Shown: positions 1 through 18,600 of the stretch, piece after piece
Position numbering within the stretch: the first letter of the stretch is position 1
Layout: each line of letters opens with the position of its first letter
DNA from: a virus
Reading direction: 5' to 3' (one strand)
IMG/VR virus record: IMGVR_UViG_3300006751_000144
Span: 1-23,505 of that record
Length of the DNA stretch: 23,505 bases
Notes under the pieces: generated by a model
Database searches by the model: none
The model's input: only the letters and a program-made list of their open reading frames with translations
What the model was told of the DNA's origin: nothing
Made by a program: the position numbers and the translations under genes

Positions 1-3000
1 GAAGCTGAATCAGAATCAGAAGACGATGAGTCTGAGGATGAAGAAGGGACAGCCGCAACTGTTATTTATATGTCTTCTGATATAAAATCTCGATTAATTA
101 AAGTTAGAAAGACATTGAATCTCTATTCGAGATACAAGACAATGTATACAGCAGTAGAGGGTGGTAATTTATATTTTACTAATTCGAATAAGCCGTTTGA
201 TTTAAGTTTGTATGGTGATGTTGGATTGTTTCCCACTTCATTATTAGGAAAGACATTAACTCAATTAGATGATTTTTTAATTCAAAAGGGTTATAATCTT
301 CCTGGTGTTGGTGGTGTTGGTGGAATGTTTAACGACAGAGTAACCAAGATGGAGTTTAAGTTTACTAAGAAGTTTATATTAAAACGTCTAAAAATATGGA
401 CAGAGGGTTGTGGCGAAAAGCCAATTATTTTTAATAAAAAATTAAAACCCTTATTAGCTCAATCTGCTTGGAAAGATCCGACAGCCATGGCTTATTTTGC
501 TAGATTAGAGGATATGGAAATTGATATCACCGCTCGCACTCCAAAGCCCTGGTTGGAATTTATCAGAGAGCATACTTATCCACCGATTTATTCTTCAGTT
601 AATGCTATTGTTGGTAATAGTGATCCTGGTGGCTCTGTTGGTAGTTGTATTGCGGATTCTCTCGCAGCAGAGGGAAAACAACTTGGACAGGATATTTTAA
701 ATGATGTATTTAGCTTGAAAGATGCCATATTATATCAGTTTCATAAAAATCTATGTCGCAACTCATTAGAAGAAGTCATTGAGGATGATATAGAAATTGG
801 ACATATATATGACCCAAATTCAGATAGTAAGAAGAATATTCTTGCCGCAGCACAAGAGCAAGCATTCAAACAACTGAAACAAGATGATCAAGTATTCACT
901 AACACATGCGCTAATGTAACAAGTTTAATGGCCAGCACGAAAAACTCAGCAGCAATGTTGGAGGCTATTTGGAAAGAAGGGTTTGATGAAATCAAGCTTT
1001 GTGGTCTTTATGATTTGATGATGGATGCTATAGGTTGTTTGATGGGGGGACTGTCTTTAGAAGATGCGCTAGCTAGTATGATAAAGAGCGCCCTACAAGC
1101 CATGGGAATAGAAAATTTCGGGAAGTTATTTGTTGGATTATCGCCAGAGAAACAAGCAGAATTAGATGCATTAGTTAAAAAGAAGATAGAAAGCGGAGAT
1201 ATCTTCAAAGAAGGAAGTGTAAATCAACAACTTTCAGATACTTTGGAGGGTAAATTAGAATGGAATAAACCTTGGGAACCGACAGAGGCAGGCACAACAG
1301 TAAAAGAAGAATTTGAAGAAGCCAGTAAAACTTTCACTGAACCAACTGCTATGTCGGCAACAGAACAACAAGCGTCATCTCAACTGACAAGACGAACGCT
1401 AGCGCAGCAACTTGACGGTAGTAATAAAAATCAATTAAGTCCAAATGTTGTGATTCAAGCGTATGTTTTAGCTCTTTTAGAAGCGTATTCAGATAATTTG
1501 TTGGAATTACTTGATGAGTTGAATAAATTTCCAGGCTCCCAAGTTATTTCCGCTCTCATTGCTACGCTTGATTGTCCTCGTCCACCTATTTTAAATCCAA
1601 ATATTTTGGATTTTATTAAATCTATTGAACTTCCGTTTTGTCGCAATATTCACGATATTACATTTCCAAGATTAGATAATCCTTTCGGATGGCTTCCTGA
1701 TATTAAAGACATTTTAAAGTTTATTTGGATGGCAATGAAATTAGCGCTGCAGCAGTTGATTATTAAAATTTTATTAAAATTAATGATTAAAATTTGTGAG
1801 TTAATTGGAAATGCATTATGTAAAGCGTTGGAAACAGCGGGAGATATTGCAGCATCATTGCCGGCTATGGCGACAGGAAGAACAACATTATCGGATGTAA
1901 TTAAAGAATCAATCTGTGGTGATGATGCCGATTCAGAGCAAATTGATAATACTGTCGTGGATATGTTTTCTTCACTAGGATTAGGTGGACAAGCATTATC
2001 CGATAGAGATAAAGTATTGGCATTCGCAGAAGATATTTCATCTTCAACAACAAGATCGGAACTAATGAATGCATTTTTAGGTGATCCATCAAGTGATTTC
2101 TTGGAGGTTGTTAGTTCTGTAGTCGAGTTTGAATATCCAGAATTTCAAGATGCATTGCCTAATAAAGAGGCGCTTGGCAGCTTTTTTAAGAATTCTGGTA
2201 ATTTAATGCCTCTAGACTTTAAACAACAAATGAGAGATTTCGTTGGTGACTTGCCAGAAGGCGATATGTTGCCGGCAAATCCATCACTTTGCGCCACACC
2301 AGAACAACTTGAAGAGTTTTGTAATTTAAGGGCAGACATTTTAGAAGGCAGAGCAACAGAAGATCAGATTAAAGAAATGTGCGATAATAAACCTTTACTT
2401 AATGATTTAGATGATTTAGGGGCAATCTTACAAAGCGGCATTCCAGATTATATTGCTAGCAACATGCCGCCTATGACATCTGATCCTGGTTGTGATAATG
2501 GAATAGTTCCATTCGAATCCGAAGAACAGAAAGCAGTTGTATCTGCTGCATTAGGTGGTGATATGGAACAACTTAAAGTTGATTTTTCATATGATATGTT
2601 AGGCAACGGGCCTCAAAAGCAACGATGGGGTTTGATTAACATGATTATGTCCGATACAATGGGCATGCCGTTGACAGCGCATCATAGAATGGTATTCAAT
2701 AGAAGACGTTGGGTTGACTTTTATATTGATCCAGGGGAGATTGACGAAGACGTATCAGACGATAATGTGGCAAAACTTAAAAGACAAAAAGGAGCATATC
2801 CAGAAAAAATAGCAGAACTTCTGCAAACAAGATTAGGTGAATTAGATACAACATTCACATCAACAAACGATTATCAGGATGCTGTTACGTTTTCACGAAC
2901 ATATGAAGATTTGGGAATTGATAGATTTGGCAAGAATGTTGATTTATTATCATTGCCGGATCTTGGATACAACTACACAACAGAAGTTGATTATAAGAAT

Positions 3001-5775
3001 GAAGAAATTGATTTCATTCAGGAAGCAAGAAAAGAAACTCCAGATATAACTTTGGTATTTGAAGATTTGTCTGGTGGTAGATTAGACAGCGATGACCAGG
3101 CAGTTTTTTCTTTTGGATTTGAAATGGGGATGTATTTATCTGACTTATATGAATCTGGAAGTGTGGTTGTTAATCGTCCTAACGATAATGCAAGAATTAA
3201 AATCACAAATGAATATAATGCAGCAGATAAAATAGACTGGGTGGCGCTAGCGTTGATGCCGCTTACAGCAAAACTTGAACTGATGACAACTTTAAAAGAA
3301 AAGATGGAAAATCCAGAATCAATTTTTGAGAGAACTTATGAGTTTCTTTCGGTTGATGATACGCTTGATGATATTGACTTATCAGATTATCCAGAGTTTT
3401 TATCGATATTTGAGACGCCATCATTATACATACCTCAGATTGTGCTTTTGACAGAAATTTTAAATAACAATGGCGCCACATTATCAAATGCTGAAGTAAA
3501 AAGTTTTCATGATGAGGCAATGGGTAATATCTTTAAGACATTTTCTGCCGCAATTGCAGAAAATGAAGCCGCATTTACTTATGGCGCTGTATTTGATGAT
3601 TTAACTAAAGGTGATGTTGATTATGTTACTGAAGATGGTGTTTCATATTCTGAATCAGATTACACCAACGATGACATGGTGCTGGGAATCAGCTATAATC
3701 AATTCAAGATGGAAGCTGCCGGCACACCGGAGCTTACCCGAGTCTTTTATCTTGATCCTGCACAATATGGCGGTACATATATGAATCCTCCGATATATAT
3801 CGCACCATTGGCAAATGAAGGATGGTTGGGATTCATTGATATAATGTTCCCTGAGATAAGTCCATGTAAACCACAAAGAACAGATTTGATTGACTTTGAT
3901 CAAATTCAAAGTATAATCGATGATGTATATCCAACAATGCCAGAAGATGAGAGGTTAAAATCTGATCCAGATTGTGTAGTTGAAGTGCCTTATTCTAGAA
4001 TTCTAGAAAGATCCTCCGCTGCCGCCCTTCAGGGTATTATCACTGCCGCCATTAGGATATTTGCCAGCGTACATTTATTAAAAGGAATGGCAACATTCAG
4101 TAAGTTTTATCCAAAATTTACAGAGGTATATAGTTCGCTTTTTGCACAATATATTGTAGAAGATATGGAAGCGAATTTCAAAGATGCTCAAAAGGCTTTT
4201 TGGGAATTCTTTAATCCTTTCAAGGATACTGAATTTTGGTATGCATTTTTGGAGCAATCGGTACAAGTGTATTCACGAAGGGTTGATGATGGTGATATTT
4301 TAGATGTTCCAGATAATGTTTTAAATGCATTAATGAGTTTAAATGATACTCAAGAATCATTTGATTATCCTTATCGAGAGGATTTAAAAGAAGCAAAAGA
4401 TTTAGATGAAGTAAGTCGATTAAAAACATTAAAAAATTATCGTTCAAATAAGAATTTGGAAGCAGTACAAGAGACAGAAGAGATGGCAAAATTAGTTCTC
4501 AAAGAATTGGTTATTGAACAGTTAAATTATATGGGTGAGAAATATGTTGAGAATCTTGAAATTTTAGGTATGAAGCCTGATGTTTTTGATTTGGATTATT
4601 ATGTTTTTCAAGAACTTACACAAGGTAGTAGTTTAACGCTTGAAGAAGAAATAGAAGAAGAAGTGGTTTCTCTCCCAACTGAAGGTGAGGAATTATATAC
4701 TGATGGCACCGAATTTGTTAACACTGAAACAGATGAAATGTATATTGGATATTATCACGTCAATACAAGTGAAGGCGATGTTGTGTATATGGCTGGAGAA
4801 TTTCATGTAGAAGAAGGGCATGATGTTTTACGTCCGATTGCTGATCAGGTAATTGTTCCAATTGGAGATGTAGAAGATTATGGTTATTCTCCATCTGCCA
4901 GCACAGAACAGCCGTTTTTGATTGAGAAATATATCAGTATTGATGGTAAAAAATACGCATCAGACGATGCTATCGATATTATTACAGCAAATGATGATAC
5001 ATTGCTTATATCTGAAGTTTATCCTGGTACGCTAGAAAAAGTTGTCGGCAGTGCAGGACAAGTTACTGGATTAACTGGCGAATTAGGAGTTCGTTATGGG
5101 TTGTTGTTTTCTATTGTGATAAATGGTACTGCCTACGAGGCAACAAGTGTCGAAGTGGATGCTCTAGATATGCTTATTGCCTCTACTCCTCCATTTGAAG
5201 GTGATAGTAAGTTATTATTGTGTTTGCTAAATATGCTTAAAAACGATGACACTTATAAATTAGCAGTACAATATGCTTTCCCGATGAAAAAAGTTTTATC
5301 AATGTTGGCAATATATAATTCTGAAGCATTTTTGCCATCCATTGGAGAGGTGACAGTAGAAGCAGGAGCAGCATATGGAACAGACACAGATATGGATACT
5401 AAACCAGGAATGCAAGTTGAATATGATTCTAGTGGCGTTGCGAGTTCATCTGTAGCTCAGTCTGGTTGGGCAAATATTGATGATCGTAGCCAGATACCAA
5501 CTCCATTTGTTACTACGTGGGACGAATGGGATCGTGTTTTATTAAGAAACTCCAAAAGTCGAATTAAGAAGTTGTTTAAAACGCACTATAATTCTAGAGA
5601 CTTCGATCCCGGCGATCCCGATGGAGCCAATAAACCTGGAAAAATCATTATTAATGGATTGAGAGAAGGATTGAAACCACCAACAGGCATGCATTTACTA
5701 CCATGGTGGAAATTCCGAATGAGAAGATCTAATCCATTTAATTCCAAAGGTACGCTTTGTGAAAAAGAAGATTGA
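1..5775 (+). CDS. Giant phage structural protein, 5' end outside the window
   Basis: Probable baseplate or tail component of unknown exact role. The frame is open from base 1, so the Met at base 70 is probably internal: no Shine-Dalgarno sequence stands at the usual distance before it, and the 23 preceding codons encode a Glu/Asp/Ser-rich acidic run. Counting from that Met, residues about 548-600 form a strongly hydrophobic, Lys-dotted helical stretch like those of tail or membrane-contacting proteins. Residues about 1540-1590 hold a Gly/Tyr/His module (GYYHV at 1560-1564, FHVEEGHDVL at 1578-1587). A GELGVRYGL motif lies at 1670-1678. The last 80 residues are basic and aromatic, with a PWWK motif, and end in Cys-Glu-Lys-Glu-Asp. 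These C-terminal motifs resemble, from memory, recurring modules of giant marine phage virion proteins. It ends 26 bases before the gp25-like gene. A tape-measure role is possible but not supported by an overall repetitive coiled-coil pattern. The virion role is inferred from context. Confidence 0.6.
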   Translation, partial: EAESESEDDESEDEEGTAATVIYMSSDIKSRLIKVRKTLNLYSRYKTMYTAVEGGNLYFTNSNKPFDLSLYGDVGLFPTSLLGKTLTQLDDFLIQKGYNLPGVGGVGGMFNDRVTKMEFKFTKKFILKRLKIWTEGCGEKPIIFNKKLKPLLAQSAWKDPTAMAYFARLEDMEIDITARTPKPWLEFIREHTYPPIYSSVNAIVGNSDPGGSVGSCIADSLAAEGKQLGQDILNDVFSLKDAILYQFHKNLCRNSLEEVIEDDIEIGHIYDPNSDSKKNILAAAQEQAFKQLKQDDQVFTNTCANVTSLMASTKNSAAMLEAIWKEGFDEIKLCGLYDLMMDAIGCLMGGLSLEDALASMIKSALQAMGIENFGKLFVGLSPEKQAELDALVKKKIESGDIFKEGSVNQQLSDTLEGKLEWNKPWEPTEAGTTVKEEFEEASKTFTEPTAMSATEQQASSQLTRRTLAQQLDGSNKNQLSPNVVIQAYVLALLEAYSDNLLELLDELNKFPGSQVISALIATLDCPRPPILNPNILDFIKSIELPFCRNIHDITFPRLDNPFGWLPDIKDILKFIWMAMKLALQQLIIKILLKLMIKICELIGNALCKALETAGDIAASLPAMATGRTTLSDVIKESICGDDADSEQIDNTVVDMFSSLGLGGQALSDRDKVLAFAEDISSSTTRSELMNAFLGDPSSDFLEVVSSVVEFEYPEFQDALPNKEALGSFFKNSGNLMPLDFKQQMRDFVGDLPEGDMLPANPSLCATPEQLEEFCNLRADILEGRATEDQIKEMCDNKPLLNDLDDLGAILQSGIPDYIASNMPPMTSDPGCDNGIVPFESEEQKAVVSAALGGDMEQLKVDFSYDMLGNGPQKQRWGLINMIMSDTMGMPLTAHHRMVFNRRRWVDFYIDPGEIDEDVSDDNVAKLKRQKGAYPEKIAELLQTRLGELDTTFTSTNDYQDAVTFSRTYEDLGIDRFGKNVDLLSLPDLGYNYTTEVDYKNEEIDFIQEARKETPDITLVFEDLSGGRLDSDDQAVFSFGFEMGMYLSDLYESGSVVVNRPNDNARIKITNEYNAADKIDWVALALMPLTAKLELMTTLKEKMENPESIFERTYEFLSVDDTLDDIDLSDYPEFLSIFETPSLYIPQIVLLTEILNNNGATLSNAEVKSFHDEAMGNIFKTFSAAIAENEAAFTYGAVFDDLTKGDVDYVTEDGVSYSESDYTNDDMVLGISYNQFKMEAAGTPELTRVFYLDPAQYGGTYMNPPIYIAPLANEGWLGFIDIMFPEISPCKPQRTDLIDFDQIQSIIDDVYPTMPEDERLKSDPDCVVEVPYSRILERSSAAALQGIITAAIRIFASVHLLKGMATFSKFYPKFTEVYSSLFAQYIVEDMEANFKDAQKAFWEFFNPFKDTEFWYAFLEQSVQVYSRRVDDGDILDVPDNVLNALMSLNDTQESFDYPYREDLKEAKDLDEVSRLKTLKNYRSNKNLEAVQETEEMAKLVLKELVIEQLNYMGEKYVENLEILGMKPDVFDLDYYVFQELTQGSSLTLEEEIEEEVVSLPTEGEELYTDGTEFVNTETDEMYIGYYHVNTSEGDVVYMAGEFHVEEGHDVLRPIADQVIVPIGDVEDYGYSPSASTEQPFLIEKYISIDGKKYASDDAIDIITANDDTLLISEVYPGTLEKVVGSAGQVTGLTGELGVRYGLLFSIVINGTAYEATSVEVDALDMLIASTPPFEGDSKLLLCLLNMLKNDDTYKLAVQYAFPMKKVLSMLAIYNSEAFLPSIGEVTVEAGAAYGTDTDMDTKPGMQVEYDSSGVASSSVAQSGWANIDDRSQIPTPFVTTWDEWDRVLLRNSKSRIKKLFKTHYNSRDFDPGDPDGANKPGKIIINGLREGLKPPTGMHLLPWWKFRMRRSNPFNSKGTLCEKED

Positions 5776-5801: not shown

Positions 5802-6170
5802 ATGGCTTCTTTTGGTGTCGCCCTTCCGCTTGCATTAGATTCGAACGATGGTTTTGTAATGTTGAAGAGTGTTAAAAAATTAATTAAGCAAAATCTAAAA
5901 ATGCTTCTATTGACAAATCCTGGCGAGCGAGTGATGGAACCTGATTTCGGTGTTGGTATTAAACAATTTTTATTTCAAAATTTTGGCTCTGGCACCGAAG
6001 GGCAAATAGATAGTAAAATTAGAGAACAAGTCAATATTTATCTACCAATTGTTAATATATTAAATATTTCTTTTGGACTCACTAATCCTGATAATAATCA
6101 TTTGGGATTTTCAATAGTTTATTCTATTCCAGATATAGGGGCAAGAGATTTATTAGAATTTACTATTTAA
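5802..6170 (+). CDS. 25: gp25-like baseplate wedge / sheath initiator protein
   Basis: A 122-residue protein of the GPW/gp25 family (T4 gp25, P2 gpW, type VI secretion TssE). In contractile tails this protein joins the baseplate wedge to the first sheath ring and starts sheath polymerisation. The family signature is clear: residues 31-52 read NLKMLLLTNPGERV followed by MEPDFGVG, matching the usual pattern of a helix, then TxPGERVxxPDFGxG. After it come a Leu/Phe stretch, a helix (DSKIREQVNIYLP) and C-terminal strands ending LLEFTI. The length matches T4 gp25 (132 residues). The start is supported by GAGG at 5789-5792, nine bases before the ATG. The gp6/J-like gene follows after 15 bases, the same gp25/W-then-J order as in P2-type phages. 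Some databases label this family 'lysozyme-like'; nothing here suggests enzymatic activity. Confidence 0.93.
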   Translation: MASFGVALPLALDSNDGFVMLKSVKKLIKQNLKMLLLTNPGERVMEPDFGVGIKQFLFQNFGSGTEGQIDSKIREQVNIYLPIVNILNISFGLTNPDNNHLGFSIVYSIPDIGARDLLEFTI

Positions 6171-6185
6171 AAATGAGGATTTTTT

Positions 6186-7982
6186 ATGGCTGATGATCAA
6201 AAAAAGATAATTCCGATAGATTATACACACAGAGAATATAAAAGTATTCGAGATGATTTGATGGGTATTGCAGAGAGATTTTATCCAAACACTTTCCAAG
6301 ATTTTAGTGAAGCATCTTTTGGCGCTTTAATGTTAGATGCAGTTGCGTATGTTGGTGATCAGCTTTCGTTTTATTTAGATTATAATGTAAATGAATCATT
6401 TTTAGATACAGCATATCAACACAGTAATGTGATTAGACATGGAAGAGTGTTAGGGTACAAAAACACTGGACGCCCATCAACATACGGAAAGCTAGCGTTA
6501 TTTGTTCTTGTACCGGCATCGTCAACAGCAATCGGCCCAGATACAGATTATATTCCTATTTTAAAGAAAAATTCCAAATTTACTTCAACTACAGGGTTGA
6601 GTTTTGTTTTAACAGAGAATGTGGATTTTGCAGCACCAAAAAACCCAGTTGTTGTTGCGAGAGTGGATTCTGATTCGGGCGCCCCCACTTATTATGCAAT
6701 TAAGGCATACGGTACAGTGGTATCTGGGCATTATGGTAGTGAGAGAATAACAATAGGAAATTATGAGAGATTTAAAAGAATAAGACTCTCAACAGCAAAT
6801 ATTTCAGAAATCATTTCAGTTACGGATTCGGAAGGAAATGAATACTTTGAAGTTGATTATCTTTCACAAGATATGGTTTTTAAAGAATTGCCAAATAATA
6901 ATTTTAAAAATGATAATGTTGCATCGGTACTTAAGCCATATTTAGTATCTCGTAAGTTTGTTGTAGATAGAGATAGATATAATACATACCTTCAGTTTGG
7001 TAGTGGTAAATCTGGCGAATCAAATGTTGTTGCCAATCCGCAAGCTGTAGCAATAAATGTTTTTGGAAAAGATTATGTTACGGATACTACTTTTGATCCA
7101 ACTCGTCTTTCTAGAAATGAAAATTATGGAATTGTTCCTAGTAATACTAAATTAACGATTACCTATCGAACAACAAACCCGATGAATTCAAATGTAGCAA
7201 CTGCGACAGTTAATACTGTTAGTAATCCTATTATCGAATTCAAAAATAGAGACAAGTTAACTAAAGCAACAGCAACAGCAGTAGTTAATTCTATGGAAGC
7301 TAGCAATGAAGAACCGATAATTGGAGATGTTGCTGAAATTTCAACCGGTGAAATGAAAAGAAGAATTTTTGATACATTTCCTACTCAAAATAGAGCAGTC
7401 ACACAAGCAGATTATGAAAATCTCACTTATAGAATGCCGGCAAAATTTGGTTCAATTAAACGTTGCTCCGTGCAGAAAGATCCAGATTCTCTTAAACGGA
7501 ATCTCAATATGTATGTGATATCAGAAGACCAACGAGGACTTTTAATTAAAACAAACTCAACAATCAAAAATAATTTAAAAACTTGGCTGAATAATTATAG
7601 AATGTTAAATGACACAATTGATATTTTAGATCCTTATATTATTAATTTAGGAATTGAATTTATTGTTAAACCGACAACAAATGCAGATAAATTTGTTTTA
7701 TTGGATGCATGCGTGGATGCGTTAAGAAGGAAATATTCAACAGCATTTTTTATCGGAGAGCCAATTTATATTAGCGATATATATGCAACATTAAAGGAGG
7801 TTGTTGGTGTTTTGGATGTGATTAAGGCGAAAATAGTTAATAAAACAGGCGGCATTTATGCCGGCACGGAAATAGATATAAATAGAAATTTATCTCCTGA
7901 TGGTGATTATTTAATGGTTCCAAAGAATGCTATTTTAGAAATAAAATATCCAGCAACAGATTTTAAAGGAAAGATTAGGTAA
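6186..7982 (+). CDS. 6: gp6 / Baseplate_J-like baseplate wedge protein
   Basis: A 598-residue protein resembling T4 gp6 (about 660 residues) and the Baseplate_J family (P2 gpJ, type VI TssF). It is the dimeric wedge component that links neighbouring wedges into the baseplate ring. The N-terminus has the typical opening: a short Asp/Tyr region, IRDDLMGIAERFYP, then a helical FGALMLDAVAYVGDQLSFYLD segment (about residues 47-67) and HGRVLGYKNTGRPS. A middle beta-rich domain follows. Residues 388-418 carry the characteristic GEMKRRIFDTFPTQNRAVTQ and ADYENLTYRMP segment. The C-terminal alpha/beta domain (465-560) has NDTIDILDPYIINLGIEF and later a GVLDVIKAKI segment. GAGG at 6175-6178, seven bases upstream, supports the ATG. 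The stop overlaps the next ATG by one base (TAATG). The distinction between T4 gp6 and generic J is inference; the wedge role is well supported. Confidence 0.88.
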   Translation: MADDQKKIIPIDYTHREYKSIRDDLMGIAERFYPNTFQDFSEASFGALMLDAVAYVGDQLSFYLDYNVNESFLDTAYQHSNVIRHGRVLGYKNTGRPSTYGKLALFVLVPASSTAIGPDTDYIPILKKNSKFTSTTGLSFVLTENVDFAAPKNPVVVARVDSDSGAPTYYAIKAYGTVVSGHYGSERITIGNYERFKRIRLSTANISEIISVTDSEGNEYFEVDYLSQDMVFKELPNNNFKNDNVASVLKPYLVSRKFVVDRDRYNTYLQFGSGKSGESNVVANPQAVAINVFGKDYVTDTTFDPTRLSRNENYGIVPSNTKLTITYRTTNPMNSNVATATVNTVSNPIIEFKNRDKLTKATATAVVNSMEASNEEPIIGDVAEISTGEMKRRIFDTFPTQNRAVTQADYENLTYRMPAKFGSIKRCSVQKDPDSLKRNLNMYVISEDQRGLLIKTNSTIKNNLKTWLNNYRMLNDTIDILDPYIINLGIEFIVKPTTNADKFVLLDACVDALRRKYSTAFFIGEPIYISDIYATLKEVVGVLDVIKAKIVNKTGGIYAGTEIDINRNLSPDGDYLMVPKNAILEIKYPATDFKGKIR

Positions 7983-9685
7983 TGGCACTTAAGAGATATA
8001 AAGCCGACGCCGACACAACGATAGTTAATGCGTATCAGATGGATTTGACTACACGCGGAACTGGCGCCAATACCGGCGAAGCAGATGTTCTTGAAACATA
8101 TTCGATATATGGTAGAGAGAATACTGGTTCACAAGAGCTTTCACGAATGTTAATTAAATTCCCGATAACAAATATTTCAACGGATAGAACCAATGGCGTT
8201 GTACCGGCTAGTGGTAGTGTTAGTTTTTATCTTCGAATGTTTAATGCGCGACATTCCAAGACAGTTCCTGCTGATTTTAAACTTTCAATAATGGGAATAT
8301 CTCAGTCGTGGCAGGAGGGTACTGGATTAGATTTAGAAGGGTATAAGGATTTAACTAAAGGTAATTCTGGTGCAAACTGGATGAGCGCTTCGAATACAGC
8401 ATATTGGACGGATCAAGCTGGTACATTATTAGCCGGTGGCTCTTATCTTACTGGCAACAGTACAACAGAAACATTTTTATTTACTGAGACTTTTACGACA
8501 GGATTAGAAGATCTGGAAGTTGATATTACGCCATTAGTTGAACAATGGATAGCTGGAACGTATTCAAATTATGGTTTAGGTGTTCATATGTCTGCTAGTT
8601 ATGAGGCATATATTTCCGGCGCCGCAAACACAGTCACTAATCGTATGCCGGGTCAACCAACGTTAGATGCTGATGATACAACTCAAAGTGTGATTTACAA
8701 TCCCAGCGGCTCTACAAAATCATATTATACGAAACGATTTTTCGCAAGAGGCTCGCAATACTTCTTTAAACACCCTGTGATTGAAGCAAGATGGGATGAT
8801 AAAATTACAGACGATCGAGGTGAATTTTATTATAGTAGTTCTTTATCGACTGCTAATGATAACTTGAATACGCTATATCTTTACAATTATGTTCGCGGAA
8901 AATTAAGTGATATTCCCGGCCTGGGCACCGCCAAGAAGATATATGTTAGTTTATTTTCTGGTTCTGTCGGTGGGTTTTATACTGGAGGCGACGGAGATGA
9001 TGTGGCACCATCGGACATTCCAATTTCAGGATCAACTGGTAGTGTGCAAATATTATCTGTTGACAATAGCAGCTTTGTCAGTAGTGTCAATAAATTAGTT
9101 GCAACAGGCGGAATTGTTTCAACTGGAATTTACAGTGCATCGTTTGCGTTCACTGGATCAACATTGCTGGAAACTGTATATGATGTTTGGTTTACTGGAA
9201 GCCACTCTACAATTAGTGCTGTTAACGCTATAACTCAATACTTCACAGGAACAATCAAGCCGATAACATTAAAAGCAGAACCACACAATGTACATCCAAC
9301 ATACTATCTGAATGTTACAAATCTTCAACAAAAATATCCCGGTAATCAAACTGCTCGTTTTAATGTGTTTGTTCGAGAAAAATACTGGAATCCAACGATA
9401 TATACGAAAGCAAGCTCAACTGCAAAATCGGCAACTGTCGTAAGTGCTTCATATCGTGTATTTAGAACTTTAGATGCATACGATGCGATACCTTATGGTA
9501 CAGGTAGTGATTTACATACCTTGATGTCATATGATGAATCTGGTAATTATTTTGATTTAGATATGAAGCTATTAGAACCGGGATACGAATACGCACTTAA
9601 ATTTTCATTTTATGACAGTCAGTTGAGTAGCTGGACTGAACAAAACGAATTATTTAAGTTCAGAGTAGAAGATTATGAGTATTAA
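7982..9685 (+). CDS. Phage structural protein with DNRLRE-like N-terminal domain
   Basis: A 567-residue protein placed between the gp6/J gene and the giant gene, probably a virion (baseplate or tail-decoration) protein. Residues about 1-205 look like a DNRLRE/CBM96-type jelly-roll domain: a DADTTI start, an Asn/Gly/Glu-rich loop, SRMLIKFPI at about 53-61, a strand of the VSFYLRMFNA type, SQSWQEGTG, paired Trp-containing strands, and a closing VDITPLVEQWIAG then YSNYGLGVHM near 180-204. The middle is Ser/Thr/Gly-rich. The C-terminal third contains a FNVFVREKYWNPTIYT segment, an ASYRVFRTLDAYDAIPYGTGSD segment, and a final SYDESGNYFDLDMKLLEPGY then FKFRVEDYEY segment, which I recall as recurrent in marine phage proteins beside gp6. 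DNRLRE domains are usually in extracellular or surface proteins, so glycan or surface contact is plausible but unproven. Its ATG overlaps the preceding stop by one base; AAAGGA at 7965-7970 may serve as ribosome binding site. Confidence 0.7.
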   Translation: MALKRYKADADTTIVNAYQMDLTTRGTGANTGEADVLETYSIYGRENTGSQELSRMLIKFPITNISTDRTNGVVPASGSVSFYLRMFNARHSKTVPADFKLSIMGISQSWQEGTGLDLEGYKDLTKGNSGANWMSASNTAYWTDQAGTLLAGGSYLTGNSTTETFLFTETFTTGLEDLEVDITPLVEQWIAGTYSNYGLGVHMSASYEAYISGAANTVTNRMPGQPTLDADDTTQSVIYNPSGSTKSYYTKRFFARGSQYFFKHPVIEARWDDKITDDRGEFYYSSSLSTANDNLNTLYLYNYVRGKLSDIPGLGTAKKIYVSLFSGSVGGFYTGGDGDDVAPSDIPISGSTGSVQILSVDNSSFVSSVNKLVATGGIVSTGIYSASFAFTGSTLLETVYDVWFTGSHSTISAVNAITQYFTGTIKPITLKAEPHNVHPTYYLNVTNLQQKYPGNQTARFNVFVREKYWNPTIYTKASSTAKSATVVSASYRVFRTLDAYDAIPYGTGSDLHTLMSYDESGNYFDLDMKLLEPGYEYALKFSFYDSQLSSWTEQNELFKFRVEDYEY

Positions 9686-12600
9686 GAAACTTTTTGGATC
9701 CACAGATAAACCAAATAAATACCTCTCAGATACAACTGAAAAAGAGGCATTTCAAGAGATAGAGTCTGCAAGAAATTTAAAAGCATTAAGCGAAAAGCAA
9801 AATACTTATGTACCGCAAGTAGATTATTCAGATCCTGCTAGTTTTGCAAAATACGGTTCAGCATATCTTTACTATAAATCTTCAATGGAACGAGTTGCTG
9901 ACTTCTTTCCGTATGATGGTTCGGATGCGGAGATTAATGAATATCATAATAAATCTTTAGATATCGATAAGTATATCTTCAATAATCTCTATCCTCGTAC
10001 AAATGGATATATCCACATTAGCTCAGATGGATGGGGTACTTTAAGTGGTTCTAAATATAGCGGGTTTGGATTACCAAGCAGTTTAGAATATATTGATTTT
10101 AAAGGTGGCCCAAATACAATTACTGCTTCTAATGCCGCCGCGTTGTTTGGCAATCCAAATTCTTCTAACACAAATACAGCAAATATATATGATACTGATA
10201 TCTATACGACTGCCAAATTACCTAGTAATTTTGGTTCTGGTTCTAGAGAATCAAATCTAAAATCAAATTTTGACGATGGTGTTACGGTTGAATTTTGGGC
10301 AAAAACAGGATCTCTGGGTGCAGCATTAACCAATAAACAAGTTTTCGTTGATATTTGGAATAATGAAGTATCCTCTAGTGCTTACGGAGGTTCTGTTGGC
10401 GCAAATCCAAATCCAGTATATGGACGCATTACTATAGCATATCAGGTTCCTTTAGAACGGTTTGTGATTACAGCGCAATCAGGTTCCACCGGTATTTTTG
10501 AACAAAAAATCGGAACAAGCCTTACAGGTTCTTTATCTGATTGGAAACATTATGCGGTTTCATTTTATAATTCAGGTAGCAGTTTTATTACAAATCTTCA
10601 TGTTGATGGGAAATTAAATGATTCTAATTCTATTGCAGGATTGAATGTTAATGAAATTAACTCAAAGAATATGGTTGGTAGAATTGGAGCACTCTTATCC
10701 TCTCCATCAGGAGCCGCCGGTTCTGCTCAACAAACACAAAATATGGTTGGCGCAGGTAAACTTAGTGGTTCGTTGGATGAGTTTAGATTTTGGAAGGCTT
10801 ATCGTAACTCTCACGAGATTGCCAAACATTACTTTACGCAAGTAAGAGGCGGCGCAAATACAGATATTTCTAATACGACTTTAGGTCTCTATTACAAATT
10901 TAATGAAGGTATAACTGGAACTTCGACTACTGATAGTGTGGTTTTGGATTATAGCGGAAGGATAAGTAACGGAACTTGGACGGGATATAGTACAACTTCT
11001 AGAAATACTGGTTCTGCGATAATATCTGCTAGTGCTGCGGGGGTAGAATACGAAGACCCGATTATCAGAACAAATCATTCAGATGTTACGAGTTTGAAAA
11101 AAGCTTTGTTAGATAGTGGTTCGTATCATGATAACACTAGCATTTCTTCGATGCTAAGTATGATTCCAAGTTGGATTGTTGAAGAGCAAGAAAAAGCAGA
11201 AGATGGTAATGTACAAGTAATGTCTCATATTATTGGAGCTTACTTTGATAAATTGCATTTAATGATTACTGCTCTCCCGAAATTTAACAGTCAAACACAC
11301 ACCAGCGCTTCGTATACTCCTTTGGCTTTCGCACAGCACCTACCGCAATCGTTGGGATTGTACACTCCAGAGATATTTGTTGATTCAGACGTGTTGGAAC
11401 GATTTATGAATCGAAATCAAACTATGCTATTTGAAGGAGATTTAATAGAAACAAAGAATTTGATTTATTTGAATCTTTACAATAACTTAACAAATATTTA
11501 TAAATCAAAAGGAACAGAGAAATCCATTCGAAATGTATTTAGATGTTTTAATGTTGATGAAAAAGTACTTAGATTTAATACATATGCTCATAATGCGACA
11601 TATGAGTTAAAAGATAATTTTCAACAAACATTAATAAACAAGCCTTTAATAAATTTAAATAAAAAAGATAATTTAACTGCAGTTATATATCAAGCAGCAG
11701 ATGCTGCAAATGGAGAAAGTTTAGGATACATTTCTGGGAGCAACGGCGCCGGTGATCCAGGTGGTGCTGGTGGCGGGAATGATGCATATGAAGATAAATA
11801 CGGATTTACAGCAGAATCCAGTGTTATTTTCCCAAAATTTAATCAAATTGCTAATAATTTTGATCGTAATTATGCCGACGTTTCATTATTTGGAATGTAC
11901 ACAGTCAACACCGGAAGCGCCAATTCATTAAATGGAACAGATACGACTTTTGTTGATGAGGATTTTGCAAACTTTCAAGTGATGGCTGTTAAGGATAAAC
12001 ACTTATCGAAAAATGTTTATTTTAAATTAACTTCTTCAATTTCACCATATTCTTTTCCCGAATTAACAAGTAGTACATTTTTTAATGTATATGATGATAA
12101 TCATTGGAATTTTTCTGTTAGATTAAAACCAAGTAATTATCCTCTTACTGATATTGTGACTGGATCAGAAGGTTACACATATGATGTAATTTTCAAAGGT
12201 ATCAATACATTTATTGGTACTATTCAAGATAGCTTTACTTTAACCGGTTCGGTGAGTAAAGAAGTTGGACGGAATATTTTAAGATCAGCTAAACGGCTGT
12301 ATGCCGGCGCCCGAAGGACAAATGTAACTGGTAATGTGCTGCAGTATTCTGATGTGTTGTTTTCAAATGTAAAATATTGGACAAAATATTTAGACGATTC
12401 ATCAATTGAGCGGCATTTATATGATTTCGAAAACAGAGGAGTATCAGGTTCCTATCAGCCGACATCACCACGAGACGCAAATATTAAAAATGTAAATATT
12501 CTTAATTTAAATACTTTGGCATTGGATTGGAATTTTGAAAATGTAACAAGTTCTAATACTGATGGTACTTTTGTTGTAACTGATATGAGTTCTGGTTCAG

Positions 12601-15600
12601 CGTTAATTCGTGATAACTATGGATGGATAGGAAAAGTTGCAGGATATCAACATACTGGTTATGGAAAGTCATTTGCCACTTCTTCAAGTGATGTGATAAC
12701 AAAAGAAGCAATTAATGTTTTCAAATACATTGACCCTGAAAAAGTAGTATCCTCCGATATGGTTCAGATACTAACAGAAGATGATAAAGTTTTTGGAACT
12801 CCAGATAGTATTCCCAGTTATCGGTATACCTTGGAAAAGAGTATGCACAATGCCATATCAGAAGAAATGCTTAAGTTTTTTGCTGGTGCTGTTGATTTTA
12901 ATAATGTCATTGGCGAACCAGTTAATAGATATCGTGCTGAATATAAGACATTGCGCAAATTAAGAGAAATATTCTTTCGCAAAGTAGTAGCAATAAAAGA
13001 TGTAGAAGATTATATTGATTATTATAAATGGTTTGATGATTCTTTAGCTCAAATTATTGGTCAGTTATTGCCGGCATCTTCTGATTTTGAGAGTGATGTT
13101 TTTAATACTATTGAAAGTCATGTGTTGGAAAGAAATAAATATGAAACAAAATTTCCCACACTTGAGTTTAAAGCCACTCCACCGGAGGCCTCGTTTGAAG
13201 GAATTGGTGCAAAATTATATCCACCACGAGGAGGGGCGACTCCCACGGGTTCAGGCCCATTAGATAATTATGTAAAAAGAAAAACAAATATTAATGAAGT
13301 TTATTGGAAAAATAGAGCAGAAAGAGACTCAGTTGAAATAACATCGGGCGATAGCACTGTAGATGCGCAGAGGTTAATTATTCGTGATATAGTTGCAAGT
13401 GTTCCCGCATTTAGTCGTTCTTTCCCTACATTATCAAGCATCGGTGGCGTCAAATATCTTGATAGTAAATTTAGATATAAACAATTAGTAAAATTGTATA
13501 ATTTTGAAATATTAAGTCCCTTTAGTCCTAAAACTAGCTTCTTTAAAGGTGGTATGAATTTTGAACAGAAAAAGAGTCTTCAATTTACTTATACCGCTTT
13601 ATATCCGTTTGGTCCAGTTAATCGTACTAATAGTGTTTTTGTTCCAAAAAATGTTTTATTTGCTCATGTTAGTGATTTAGAAGGACTCAAAGAAACACAC
13701 TTAGATAATATTAACAGTAGTTCAAATCCATCGCAGAAAACAAAGCGATATTTTAAAGTTCAACATGGTAGAGATTGGGAAGAGGGAGGGGGCTATAGTA
13801 ACGTTAAATCATCATTTTCTTTTCCGTTTAATGTTATGAGTTCATCTGTAAAAACTGGTTTTAACAAGATAGTAGTGGATAGAGTGACAGGTGGTATTGA
13901 AATTACAAATCTTCATCATGATGCATATGGTGCTGATTTAGATATTCCAATGCAAGGTAACTTTACGAATTATGCTGTTGGTGGACATCAATCACGTCAT
14001 GTTCCGCTTAATACGGGAAGTGATGATTACACAAACCGTCCTGAAGCATGGAAGATTTTATTAGATACATGTGGCGCTATAGATGGTATTACCGGTGCTA
14101 TTGGTATGGTTGGCGCTGATTATCCCTGGCCAGAGGCAAATGCTGTCGGTGCTAATCCTTATCCAATGACTGCATCACAAAAAGCAGTTTATTATCGGGA
14201 TGGAATAGCTAAGAGGCCAGTAAATATTCGCAATATTCATCATACAACCGGCGCAGCCAGCGCAGGCGGCACTGGCTCAACAATTTTAGGAAACTATAAT
14301 CATCAATATGATATTGTTAGTACGCAAGGTGCTTACTCTAATCCACGACGATTTGTTGAACAACAGCCAACTTTGCCAGCGCCAGTGTTGTCACATTTCA
14401 CAGGCGTTGCTGCTCGTTCGTCATCTACTAATGTTATAAATAATTTTATTAATTTACATCGGGGAACAGAAGGACATTTTGATTTTAATTTAACATATGC
14501 TCCTACTGGAATTTCTGGTTCTGATAATAAATCTGTAATGATAAATCGTTTCTCTAATCCTGGTGGTATAGAAGTTATGTCAAGAGGATTTCAAAATCTC
14601 CGAGATGGTGAATTTTCTCAGTATAATAGCACGAATTATCGTAATTTAACAGTTATAAAACCACATCAAGGATCAAGAGGAACTATTTCTGAACCAACTG
14701 GAACCGAAGGAGGTCCTAGTATTAGAGTTTACGATATCCATTCAAATGATTATGGTTTGCGTTCTCATCTATCACGTCATACAGGAAAATTTGGAAGAGA
14801 TAGTTTGATATACCCCGTAGATGAGCTTCGCGAACCTTATAATCTAAACAAACCATTTATTGGATACAGTGGTGTCGAAACATATCGAACGACTGGTTCT
14901 TTACAGGGTTGGTGGAGATTAAATGAGAATGTTTCCTCCGCTCCCAATCTCCCGGCAGACAGCAGTACAAAAGGCAGGACAGGGGCATTTGACGCCGCAG
15001 ACGACCGCCCAGATTTTTCTTCATCGGCATTCCCTTCTAGATATGTTCAAACATCTAGTTGTGGTTTTTCTGGCGATGCAGACGGTGTAAATATCGGCGC
15101 CGCCGGAACTTGGAATGCGATTATAGGAAGTGCCGCTGCGTCAACCAAGAAAATGACATTTTCGGCTTGGATATATAAAGTTGGCGATGGAGGTGGAAAT
15201 TATGGACGTATTCTAGAATTTGGCGACGGAGATGTGCGATTTTACACTAATAATGTGGAAAGCATTTATTTTGATGTGACAGCTTGGTCCGGCGCCAATG
15301 CTCAATGGCATGCTACTAGTCCGTTTTCATTGACTACGTGGACGCATGTTGCTGTAACATATGATGCTACTAGTACGAATAACAATCCTATCATTTATGT
15401 TAATGGAATTGCCAAGACAGTTACAGAAGACACAGCCCCAGCAGGTACCTATGGTGCTATTGCCACTAATGCTTGTTATATAGGAAATAGAAGCGATGCA
15501 GCAAGAGGATTCAATGGTCAAATATCAGATGTCGCTGTTTGGAATTCTATATTATCACCAGAAGAAATTAAAGCAATATATAATGCTAGTAAATTGCCTA

Positions 15601-18600
15601 CTCTTGCTGGTCCTGGAGTATCTGCTGATCAATTTCCAGGTTTTCATAAAACTCATAGAAATTCATTCAAGAAAGGCCGACTTTCTAGTTCTGTCGGTAT
15701 ATTTGAAAATGGCACTGTTTTAATTTCCTCTTCTTATGATAACTTTTATGTACAACATCCAATCCCTCGCTCAGATAGGCAATATTCCTGGTATACATCC
15801 TCGTTAGCACCTGGAAGTACTGATTTAAGATATTATGGATATATGCCTCTTAAACCAAGCCCTGCTGCTGGGTATTATTCTGGGTCAGATGGAAAATATG
15901 TTTCATTCTTTAATTTTGTTTCCGCTAGTGCTGTTGGGGATGTTCAAACCAAAAGAGCGGTAAATAAAAACTTTGCTCAACCAACAGTAGGTAGACTGAA
16001 TATCCTTACTGTTGATCCTGTTAGCGGTGGTACTGATAATATTATTGGTTTTACCCCCGTTTTACCTTGGGCCGGCCCGACCCGAGGTGCGGACGATTCT
16101 CTGGGCCCTGATTCTTCTTATTTTAATAGTGATGTGTTGAACAACGCTCTCTATAAGCCACACCTTAACCCCCTCTCTTCTTCAGTTGTAGGTAATCGAG
16201 CTAATTATTTCAACCTTTTAATGACAAGAAGAGGTAATTCATTTGGATGGAGTTGGCAGAGAATCCTTCATCAATATGATAATCCTATTCTTACACAAGA
16301 AAGAAAGAATAATCGAATCACAATGATAACAGGTTCTGATCAGAATCTTGTTGGGTATCGACTCACTCCAGTTTCAATGAAAGGAAGGCCAACGTTAATT
16401 AATTTTCAATTAAGTAGTGATGAAGATATTACTCTTAAAGTAACTGATAATAATAATAAAATCTTTTTTGAAGAAACTGCAATGAATAATTTGATAATTG
16501 AATCAACGGATGGCATCACGACGCCATATGATCAGTTATTGCCAATTCTACAAGAAAATTATTCAATTAATTGGATAGTATACAGTGAAGCGCTTTATCC
16601 TTCAACATATAATGAATTCTTTTCATCATCCATTCAGCGTAGTGGATATAATAATGGTTTCTGGAGAGACAACAGAGAAAACAGAGCAGATCTAGGAAAT
16701 ACTTTAAGAAATGCATTTAATACAAGAAATGTTAATATTAGTCAGAGTAGTTGGGTATTGGATGCGCCGAAAGATTTCCTAACAAGAGGAGAGCCTGCAA
16801 CATGGCGTAATGGCGGCCTGCCAATAGTTTTCCAATTAAGTGGAAACGCCTCCGCTGGTACATTGCAAAATATTTATTCTCATTGTGTTCCGACATCTTC
16901 AGTGCTCAATGCTGGCGGTAGAGTTGGTTATCCCATCGCTGATCCAAACGACAAGCAAAGATTTGGAGCTTTAGTGCCGATGGCTTTATATGCTAGAAAA
17001 CATACAAATTTTTCTCCATCTTCTGTTACTTCACCTCAAGGGGTTAGGGTAGCTGAAACAGGTAGCAACCCCACGCAACACTCCAACCAGTGGAATACGA
17101 GTTTTCATGTTGAATTGTTTGCAGGTGAAGCACTTTGGGAAGCTGGCACGCAAGCAGGAATAATAACATCGTCAGTATCATCCCAAGGTACTACTAAGCA
17201 GGCTCTGCAACCTGGCTTTCAGTCAATTCCATCTGAGCCATGGTTTGATAAGTATTCTGATTATAACAATGATATGAAGTTGATAGCAAAAGATTATTCA
17301 ATTATCCCAGAATTTAGAATAAGTGAACACATTGAAGATTATGTTAATTATGGCTTGTTTGCCAGCACCAAGACAGATACCTTTGGAATCCCCGGCACGC
17401 ATCTATCTAGTTCTCAGAGTACATTCTATAAAGATTATTCAAACTCAGATTTTATGAATAATTTTTTGAATATTAAAGAAGATTCTTTATTAAACGCCAC
17501 AGAGATACGATTGGTTTGTAGTGCAGCAATACGATTTCATCCATATAAAGGATTTTACCCAGCACAGAGAACAGTAGATTTAGTTTCACAGTTTTCCAAA
17601 TCATATGGCAGTGGATTTTTTGCCACTTCATCGGAAGATGGTGTGAAATCGATGTCGAAAGTTGATGTGCCAACTCCCGATACTATATTGGATAGCTATG
17701 GCGGAATGATGAGGCCTTTAACGCAGACGCTTTTTGCTCCTGGTATTCTTTATAATTCTATTAAATCTGGTTTGGCTGTGGACTATCCTGTTATAACAGA
17801 TGAATATAAGATAAAAAAAGAGCATTATGGCCATAATAGTAGTATGGTGGATGGCGGCGCCGACGAAACTGGAGTAGGCTTTTGGGCTTTGGCGGCAACT
17901 TCAAGTTTGGGAGGCTCCGGTAGAGGATGTCCTATTAGTGGTGCATATTGGGATCAAAGATTGCCATTTGAAACGATAATTGAGCCTGAAAAGCGCATCA
18001 CAGATCTTAATTTAATTGACATAGAACCACACCCATCAGCTTCTTTAAATGTTACTGCTTCGTTATTAGGTGGAACATATGATGATATATATACTAGAAT
18101 GGCATCGAATTTTTTCGGTGAGATTGGTAATTTCTTTTTAAAAGACAAAGAGTTTACTAAATTAAGATCAGGTGTTGTGTCTGATAATCTAAAATTTAAA
18201 GCCGGCTCTTCGGGCGGTCCTTATGGTGCAAGAATAAAATTAAAACGCTCCAAATTTGGCAGTAGAAACTATCAATTCGAATCTGGAGCCTATGGTGGCT
18301 CCGGTAGTCCCGCCGGCTATTCAAAACAAGGAGGTGCATATTATGATACGGATGGTGCGAATTTTCTAACAAGTAGTTATTTTCCTATTCCGCAAGATCC
18401 ACGAGTAAATCTAGATTATAAAGAATCATTTACAATGTATAGTCGTCCATCAGCCTTCGGGCCTCCGGTTGCTGGTCGTCCATGGGGTACTGCTTCGTTT
18501 TTCGAAAGTACAGAAAGGACGCACCCCCTGGATTGTTTTAATGGTTTTTATGGCGCTCACACTCCTCCATATTATGATGGTGAAGCTTGGGCTGATATTA

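Follow-up and report, generated by a model that had tools for sequence, protein, structure and literature searches.

A putatively metal-binding histidine module that appears to move among unrelated phage proteins

Near the end of the first gene of a 23,505-base virus record, IMG/VR IMGVR_UViG_3300006751_000144 (the window, meaning the whole stretch of DNA analysed here), a short run of tyrosines, glycines and histidines raises two questions: does it belong to this gene alone, or is it a module that phages use more widely, and what do its histidines do? The motif YIGYYHV...GEFHVEEGHDVLRP occupies residues 1558-1589 of gene 1, counted from the Met at base 70, and bases 4741-4836. Read directly from the window, it runs Y1558-x-G1560-Y-Y-H1563-V, then G-E-F-H1579, V-E-E, G-H1584 and D-V-L-R-P1589, with GYYHV at bases 4747-4761, GEFH at 4795-4806 and GHDVLRP at 4816-4836. 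Both the location and the spacing agree with those given in an earlier, sequence-only reading of the window. The parts of gene 1 that matter below are listed in window coordinates; H1 to H4 denote the four histidine places of the canonical module.

1..5775, + strand: gene 1, the 5'-truncated carrier, 1,901 amino acids (aa) from the Met at base 70
4672..4869, + strand: module, residues 1535-1600 (LPTEGEELYT...GYYH...YMAGEFH...H..LRP...VPIGD), delimited by three alignments (A1, A2, A5), with an AlphaFold predicted local distance difference test score (pLDDT) of ~90-95
4684..4722, + strand: predicted strand 1, residues 1539-1551 (AlphaFold model residues 19-31)
4738..4770, + strand: predicted strand 2, residues 1557-1567, with Y1558, G1560, Y1562, H1563 and N1565 (model residues 37-47)
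4756..4758, + strand: H1563 (H1), His in 51 of 52 gene-1 family rows
4762..4764, + strand: N1565, at the place of H2, which is His in 19 of 52 gene-1 rows and in 154 of 154 distinct canonical modules
4777..4794, + strand: predicted strand 3, residues 1570-1575 (model residues 50-55)
4804..4806, + strand: H1579 (H3), His in 44 of 52 gene-1 rows
4819..4821, + strand: H1584 (H4), His in 44 of 52 gene-1 rows and lost together with H3
4915..5160, + strand: second predicted beta domain, after the module, residues 1616-1697 (model residues 96-177)

Judged by the sequences of its carriers, this is almost certainly a portable phage module. Two scans of viral contigs used a pattern in which YH is followed by M-x-G, H, H and L and a gap of 9-39 bases is left free. 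They returned at least 239 pattern matches, at least 208 of them with an upstream Y-x-G. All ORF counts from these scans are lower bounds, and the cluster counts refer to the matches listed. In most matches, YH and M are separated by 7 residues (the 68-base class). A slightly different filter passed at least 211 entries, corresponding to at least 203 distinct open reading frames (ORFs) once repeats and identical ORFs of different contigs are merged. With the module masked, the 211 entries formed 42 clusters, 13 of them with more than one entry; the 203 distinct ORFs formed 41, of which 17 have a median length of at least 130 aa, in keeping with the earlier proposal of a portable domain on unrelated phage proteins. 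Restriction to the gene-1 family, named there as a possible refutation, did not appear: carriers fall into many other protein clusters. Clustering without masking, which placed 198 of the 211 entries in one group, was set aside because the module itself could create the links. Masked clusters may be distantly related to one another, and the number of short-protein clusters is an overcount because short ORFs hardly cluster.

On sequence evidence, the carriers are many apparently unrelated proteins, mostly virion or structural. The largest clusters contain proteins of ~290 aa (96 distinct ORFs), of the gene-1 type (39), of ~1,250 aa (7) and of ~760 aa (6), and 39 distinct ORFs shorter than 130 aa encode standalone proteins of ~100 aa. 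Individual carriers include a portal protein (L257; PF04860, 1e-55), a 1,294-aa protein with the module close to its N-terminus (L154) and a 761-aa ORF that matches the structural family phrog_14478 (L138). Found separately, the hub/spike protein gp5 of the cultured cyanophages S-SSM7, P-TIM68 and S-SCSM1 carries the module near its C-terminal end, as does gp5 of S-SSM6a, which is closely similar to S-SSM7. The lead to gp5 was a tblastn match of the canonical module at E values of 0.3-0.4, confirmed with the gp5 end as query; the gene-1 module gave nothing significant by tblastn against cultured phages, a weak test with so short a query. The module is not confined to giant phages such as those invoked in the sequence-only reading: carriers also lie on ~60-kb contigs whose head genes are like those of Cellulophaga and Flavobacterium phages.

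The module is found in phages and hardly in cellular genomes, usually in one carrier gene per phage, as far as sequence searches indicate. A profile of the 56-row A3 alignment was searched in 42 records, mostly picked for holding the module, many of them fragments and the longest 233 kb. It matched in 41 of the 42, a rate that is not a prevalence because most records were chosen for the module, with one carrier ORF per record. Where a second match occurred (six cases), it lay in a frame of equal length beside the first and was counted with it as one ORF. The match was only partial in Microcystis phage Mel-JY01, Flavobacterium phage immuto and record G033. The strict pattern had 0 matches in 84,980 prokaryote species genomes. 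A looser search of the same genomes yielded a single relative, in a Nitrosopelagicus metagenome-assembled genome; its contig, of 4.1 kb, is perhaps a binned phage fragment. In viral contigs, the looser query found at least 600 stretches, at least 259 of them confirmed and 80 kept.

The canonical form contains four His, YHxH...MxGxxHxxxxH. Because the scan pattern fixed H1, H3 and H4 and left H2 free, the conservation of H2 is the informative one: it is His in all 154 distinct canonical modules and in 26 of 38 long-loop modules. In the A3 alignment, which includes the window, G20, H23, M34, G36, H39 and H44 are invariant; the pattern had itself fixed H23, M34, G36, H39 and H44 for most rows. 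A second set was gathered with two patterns, neither of which required H3 or H4 and one of which required H1 and H2, filtered by similarity to one canonical protein and read by profile search. Its 62 new hits in 42 ORFs comprise 42 with the full HHHH, 15 with gaps at all four places and 5 with gaps at one to three. The window copy fits Y-x-G-x-Y-H followed by M-x-G-x-x-H-x4-H-x2-L. The three spaced His noticed earlier do exist in it (H1563, H1579 and H1584), but the canonical site has four; with N1565 at the second place, the window copy has no HxH dyad.

How constant are these residues within the family of gene 1 itself? Successive scans with the module confirmed 12, 26 and then 123 relatives; 80 were retained. 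When the ORFs of contigs L001-L107 and the window were searched with a profile, 81 scored below 1e-3, all of which match gene 1 also with the module masked, so that in these contigs the module belongs to a single gene-1 family. The alignment of this family has 52 non-redundant rows, window included. Y1558, G1560, Y1562, G1546 and G1576 are invariant in all 52; His is present at 1563 in 51, at the place of 1565 in 19, and at 1579 and 1584 in 44 each. Failure of His conservation, which the earlier reading had set as a possible refutation, was thus not what we found; the three His of the window are largely kept. H3 and H4 are both present in 44 rows, both absent in 8 and mixed in none. On a tree built without the H3 and H4 columns, H3 changes at least 7 times, with ~7 losses.

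AlphaFold models the 45-50-residue beta module with confidence. In the standalone protein, the module has a pLDDT of ~92-94, with predicted strands at residues 2-14, 20-28 and 32-35 and a helix at 52-77, and most of the tail falls below 50. The window domain is modelled with a mean pLDDT of 94.1 and strands at 19-31, 37-47, 50-55 and 66-69, and the strand order agrees between the two models. H1 and H2 are placed two residues apart on strand 2, and H3 and H4 in the loop after strand 3. From sequence, a metal site in the canonical copies appears somewhat more probable than its absence, and one in the window copy falls just short of an even chance; overall, metal binding is likely for canonical copies and a little less likely for the three-His form of the window.

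Copies of another kind occur in the 290-aa family (family 0), where L112 and 16 other ORFs carry an extra N-terminal module copy that lacks all four His. Ninety entries of this family are long enough for such a copy; 17 of them are readable, and all 17 are without the four His. These copies suggest that the fold is probably independent of the His and stands without them, and that the His look like an added site.

A second trait accompanies the module outside the gene-1 type. A stop is in view for 192 of the distinct module ORFs; Tyr is the last residue in 130 of them, and 93 of those 130 have a Gly/Ser-rich tail. By class, the Tyr end occurs in 130 of 154 ORFs outside the gene-1 type and in 0 of 38 within it, and none of these 38 has a Gly/Ser-rich terminal-Tyr tail. 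Position matters as well: in the short-loop classes, 129 of 146 ORFs end in Tyr if the module lies within 150 residues of the C-terminus and 0 of 7 if it lies further away. The second set behaves alike (34 of 41 complete ORFs), while gp5 of P-TIM68 has no such tail. For comparison, among other ORFs 90 aa or longer, 129 of 3,537 (3.6%) end in Tyr and 13 have a Gly/Ser-rich Tyr tail; those 13 include at least two module proteins, S-SSM7 gp5 and an L182 ORF. A Shine-Dalgarno artefact behind the GGY ends was considered and disfavoured. The terminal Tyr is encoded by TAT in 81 cases and by TAC in 49, and Gly within the final 12 places likewise by a mixture of codons (GGA 267, GGT 226, GGC 67, GGG 41), with GGA slightly richer than in the rest of the ORFs (892/2,326); mixed Tyr and Gly codons argue against an artefact at the DNA level. 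Gly-rich tails with a terminal Tyr are also seen in ORFs of L192, L212, L234, L275, L323, L343 and other contigs in which no module was seen, and some of these proteins look tail- or baseplate-like by eye.

We are evenly divided over the reading that joins these results, namely that the module is a metal-binding virion end-piece or docking module, present about once per phage and moving between unrelated proteins. The four His, or three in the window copy, would bind one transition-metal ion, zinc or iron. The bound metal would pin the loop after strand 3 to the hairpin, and the pinned module could then serve as a rigid end-piece or docking face on the virion. Its place may be the C-terminal end of the gp5 spike in three cyanophages and a large baseplate-region protein in the window; where the module lies near the C-terminus, the flexible arm and terminal Tyr may belong to the same device and contact a neighbour. 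The narrower claim of a tail or baseplate end-piece is one we hold tentatively, with a little more doubt than belief.

Several observations weigh against this reading. The window copy is without H2, and 8 of the 52 gene-1 rows are without H3 and H4, which indicates that the site is dispensable in some phages. For the joint loss of H3 and H4, the well-supported branches supply only 4 independent pairs, which all agree but fall short of significance (sign-test p of 0.125). A full module is lacking in most of the cultured phages checked. In a further 14 records, four of them from the first 42, the full module was found only in S-SCSM1, a partial one in Mel-JY01 and immuto, and none in 11; the ten newly added records without it are five cyanophages, pelagiphage HTVC008M, three phages of Bacteroidota hosts and one uncultured phage. 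A sheath was detected in only 22 of 47 records (21 above the curated cut-off), many of these records being fragments. The 61-kb contig G002 has terminase, portal and structural genes and no sheath match, and its standalone module gene lies near a GroES-type gene and the terminase; the contig's presumed capsid protein is similar to the ones in Cellulophaga and Flavobacterium phages. Given a carrier in this contig with head genes and no sheath match, the module is probably not restricted to contractile tails, and the portal carrier L257 fits a tail-tip role badly. Finally, docking of the Tyr tail is not predicted in the standalone model, where the tail is mostly below a pLDDT of 50.

Some of the same facts would suit a docking domain that holds no metal, in which a hydrogen-bonded surface made up of the conserved Tyr, Gly and His would bind a shared partner, such as a virion protein, and the His are interface residues. 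The fold is apparently kept in the His-less N-terminal copies and in relatives without H3 and H4, the module moves among many carriers, and a His-less stretch stands at the end of a virion protein of S-SM2 (tblastn E value of 0.9 only). What speaks for a metal instead is that HxH and two further His occur together in 154 of 154 distinct canonical copies (among the matches listed, H1, H3 and H4 being fixed by the pattern and H2 free) and that H3 and H4 are lost jointly: these look like ligands of one site and not like separate contacts. We regard the metal-free surface as the strongest competitor, if a rather unlikely one.

A sharpened, metal-bound tip of the contractile-tail central spike, analogous to PAAR proteins, would account for the position near the gp5 C-terminal end in S-SSM7, P-TIM68 and S-SCSM1, for the standalone form of ~100 aa and for the single carrier per record, and PAAR itself was found in 0 of the 47 records, most of them module-bearing. 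It does not sit well with the carrier in the contig that has podovirus-like head genes and no detected sheath, with the portal carrier or with the N-terminal placements. P-SSM2, S-PM2 and four other cyanophage or pelagiphage records have no module hit, and those six were not searched for PAAR, so replacement of PAAR by the module is unsupported. This analogy strikes us as improbable.

Improbable to a still greater degree is an iron carrier for attachment, by which the virion would show iron to siderophore receptors. That marine phages carry iron to host receptors has been proposed as the Ferrojan or Trojan Horse hypothesis (PMC11705849), and HxH dyads bind iron in phage fibres and spikes (PMC6116203). 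The iron sites described there are trimeric, with octahedral iron bound by six His, and consist of HxH alone, whereas the module has two further conserved His and its window copy has no HxH; a portal carrier, moreover, would hardly reach a receptor. Last, a remnant of a JAMM/JAB-like metallopeptidase, already disfavoured, is scarcely credible: the YHxHP strand is locally similar, and of 118 rows 10 match the desampylase model of NCBIfam (best 0.0014), 4 match Cap3 and 4 Prok-JAB, but the JAMM signature HxH-x7-SxxD is absent from all 118, also with a gap of 6-12, so that these matches look like the local likeness of a zinc-binding strand; when ten members are taken singly, a Cap3 match is found in just one and spans only profile positions 89-121 of 153, the curated cut-off is reached by none, and no JAB chain is among the Foldseek matches listed.

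Within the metal-binding reading, the module and the terminal-Tyr arm might even be two halves of one clasp, the Gly-rich arm bringing its C-terminal Tyr into the metal site formed by the four His, either within one subunit or in an adjacent one. We consider this a long shot. If true, a metal-tyrosinate link would lock virion proteins together, an unknown kind of virion cross-link occurring about once per phage, on any structural protein that serves, and other virion proteins with a GGY end would be its further clients.

The setting of gene 1 is that of a tail gene. The Met at base 70, from which residues are counted, is not its start: the frame is open to base 1, where the contig's left edge cuts it. 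Contig L003, a 100% identical match to the window DNA, carries the whole ORF: from an ATG at L003:2563 it encodes ~2,087 aa, and the motif comes near residue 1,744. The first base of the window corresponds to L003:3052, and the true start lies ~163 codons upstream. No Pfam or PHROG family was found for the window part of gene 1, and none in PHROGs for the full L003 ORF. In its N-terminal part, PNPNALVPDW comes after a CxxC stretch, and similar stretches occur in L039, L049, L082 and L098. The next two genes are:

5802..6170, + strand: gp25-like baseplate wedge (PF04965, 5.6e-13; phrog_261, 4e-20)
6186..7982, + strand: gp6-like baseplate wedge (phrog_219, 2.8e-15; phrog_6, 2e-14)

After these wedges come a 567-aa protein, a 3,513-aa protein (Laminin_G_3) and a 329-aa protein, and by eye the gene order is identical in five long relatives (L039, L049, L086, L082 and L098). 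Two genes upstream of gene 1 in L049 lies a gene with matches to PHROGs for a tape measure (5.2e-06) and for an endolysin (0.013). Because the gp25 and gp6 wedges adjoin, the order is kept in relatives and a tape-measure match occurs in L049, gene 1 is, by sequence, assigned to the baseplate region of a myovirus-like tail. The nearest gp6 proteins among cultured phages are those of Mel-JY01 and immuto, in neither of which a gene-1-sized protein stands ahead of gp25, and tblastn of gene 1 against cultured phages at an E value of 0.1 found no relative.

Other features of the neighbourhood may be recorded. The 567-aa protein (window 7982-9685) ends in a conserved stretch with a terminal Tyr (RVEDYEY-like), which recurs in its relatives of L039, L082, L086 and L098 and is absent in L049. 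The 3,513-aa protein (9675-20216) has two Laminin_G_3 stretches and a Gly/Arg-rich C-terminal tail, and a frame at 21212-23505 is open to the right end of the contig, with no stop. Elsewhere, the carriers at L457:3656-4255 and L257:5526-6134, from two different phages, lie near a GroES-type co-chaperonin gene.

A conserved module that occurs about once per genome, whether on a spike, on a portal or in a standalone protein, and is nearly absent from prokaryote genomes should serve virions generally. If its metal is iron, it bears on marine phages carrying iron to host receptors; if zinc, on the stabilisation of virion parts. The standalone form and the cultured cyanophage gp5 ends make both the metal and the particle location directly testable. 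The module also brings into view a separate puzzle, the terminal-Tyr tails of unrelated proteins.

How does the module compare with what is known? PHROGs matched 0 of 56 module rows, and Pfam and NCBIfam gave only scattered weak matches, none of their families taking the module; in the searches made of Pfam, PHROGs, NCBIfam and the PDB, it appears to have no credible family. The best PDB profile match, a chain of the transcriptional regulator ERG at 0.013, was taken as chance, and MORN repeats were discounted, with PDB chains at 2.4 and 9.2 only and no MORN family among the Pfam matches. Structure comparison yielded no clear relative (best E values of 1.4 and 0.95 with Foldseek against the PDB; best Z of 2.9 and 2.6 with VIA); JAB, PAAR and MORN chains are not among the Foldseek and VIA matches listed, which excludes nothing. 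Against viral models, Foldseek gave one match below an E value of 0.001, and the five best rows (0.001 to 0.13) are uncharacterised or unnamed phage proteins. A literature search, with subscription journals mostly outside its scope, found no description of the module or its terminal-Tyr coupling. In general terms, portable virion modules are familiar, and so are metal sites built from His; in the sources searched, neither this module nor the way it is coupled to a Tyr arm is described.

In JAMM proteins, a GxYHxHP strand binds zinc. The module shares such a strand and the weak profile matches, but has no SxxD after HxH and is only ~50 residues long. PAAR and gp5.4 spike-tip proteins are small and either standalone or fused, as is the module, which also lies near the gp5 end in three cyanophages; unlike PAAR, it has no PF05488 match in the 56 and 118 module rows scanned and no conserved Cys (any Cys in 3 of 118 rows), and it also occurs in a contig without a detected sheath. 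In S-SSM7, P-TIM68 and S-SCSM1, cyanophage gp5, the baseplate hub and tail lysozyme, bears the module close to its C-terminus, whereas gene 1 is a different protein. From the HxH iron sites reported for T4 gp37, P2 gpV, phi92 and R-pyocin (PMC6116203), the module differs in its two additional conserved His, 11 and 16 residues after H2, in its defined beta module, in its presence on portal and standalone proteins and in the window copy without HxH. What the canonical form has in common with those sites is a His-x-His on a virion protein and a plausible role for metal.

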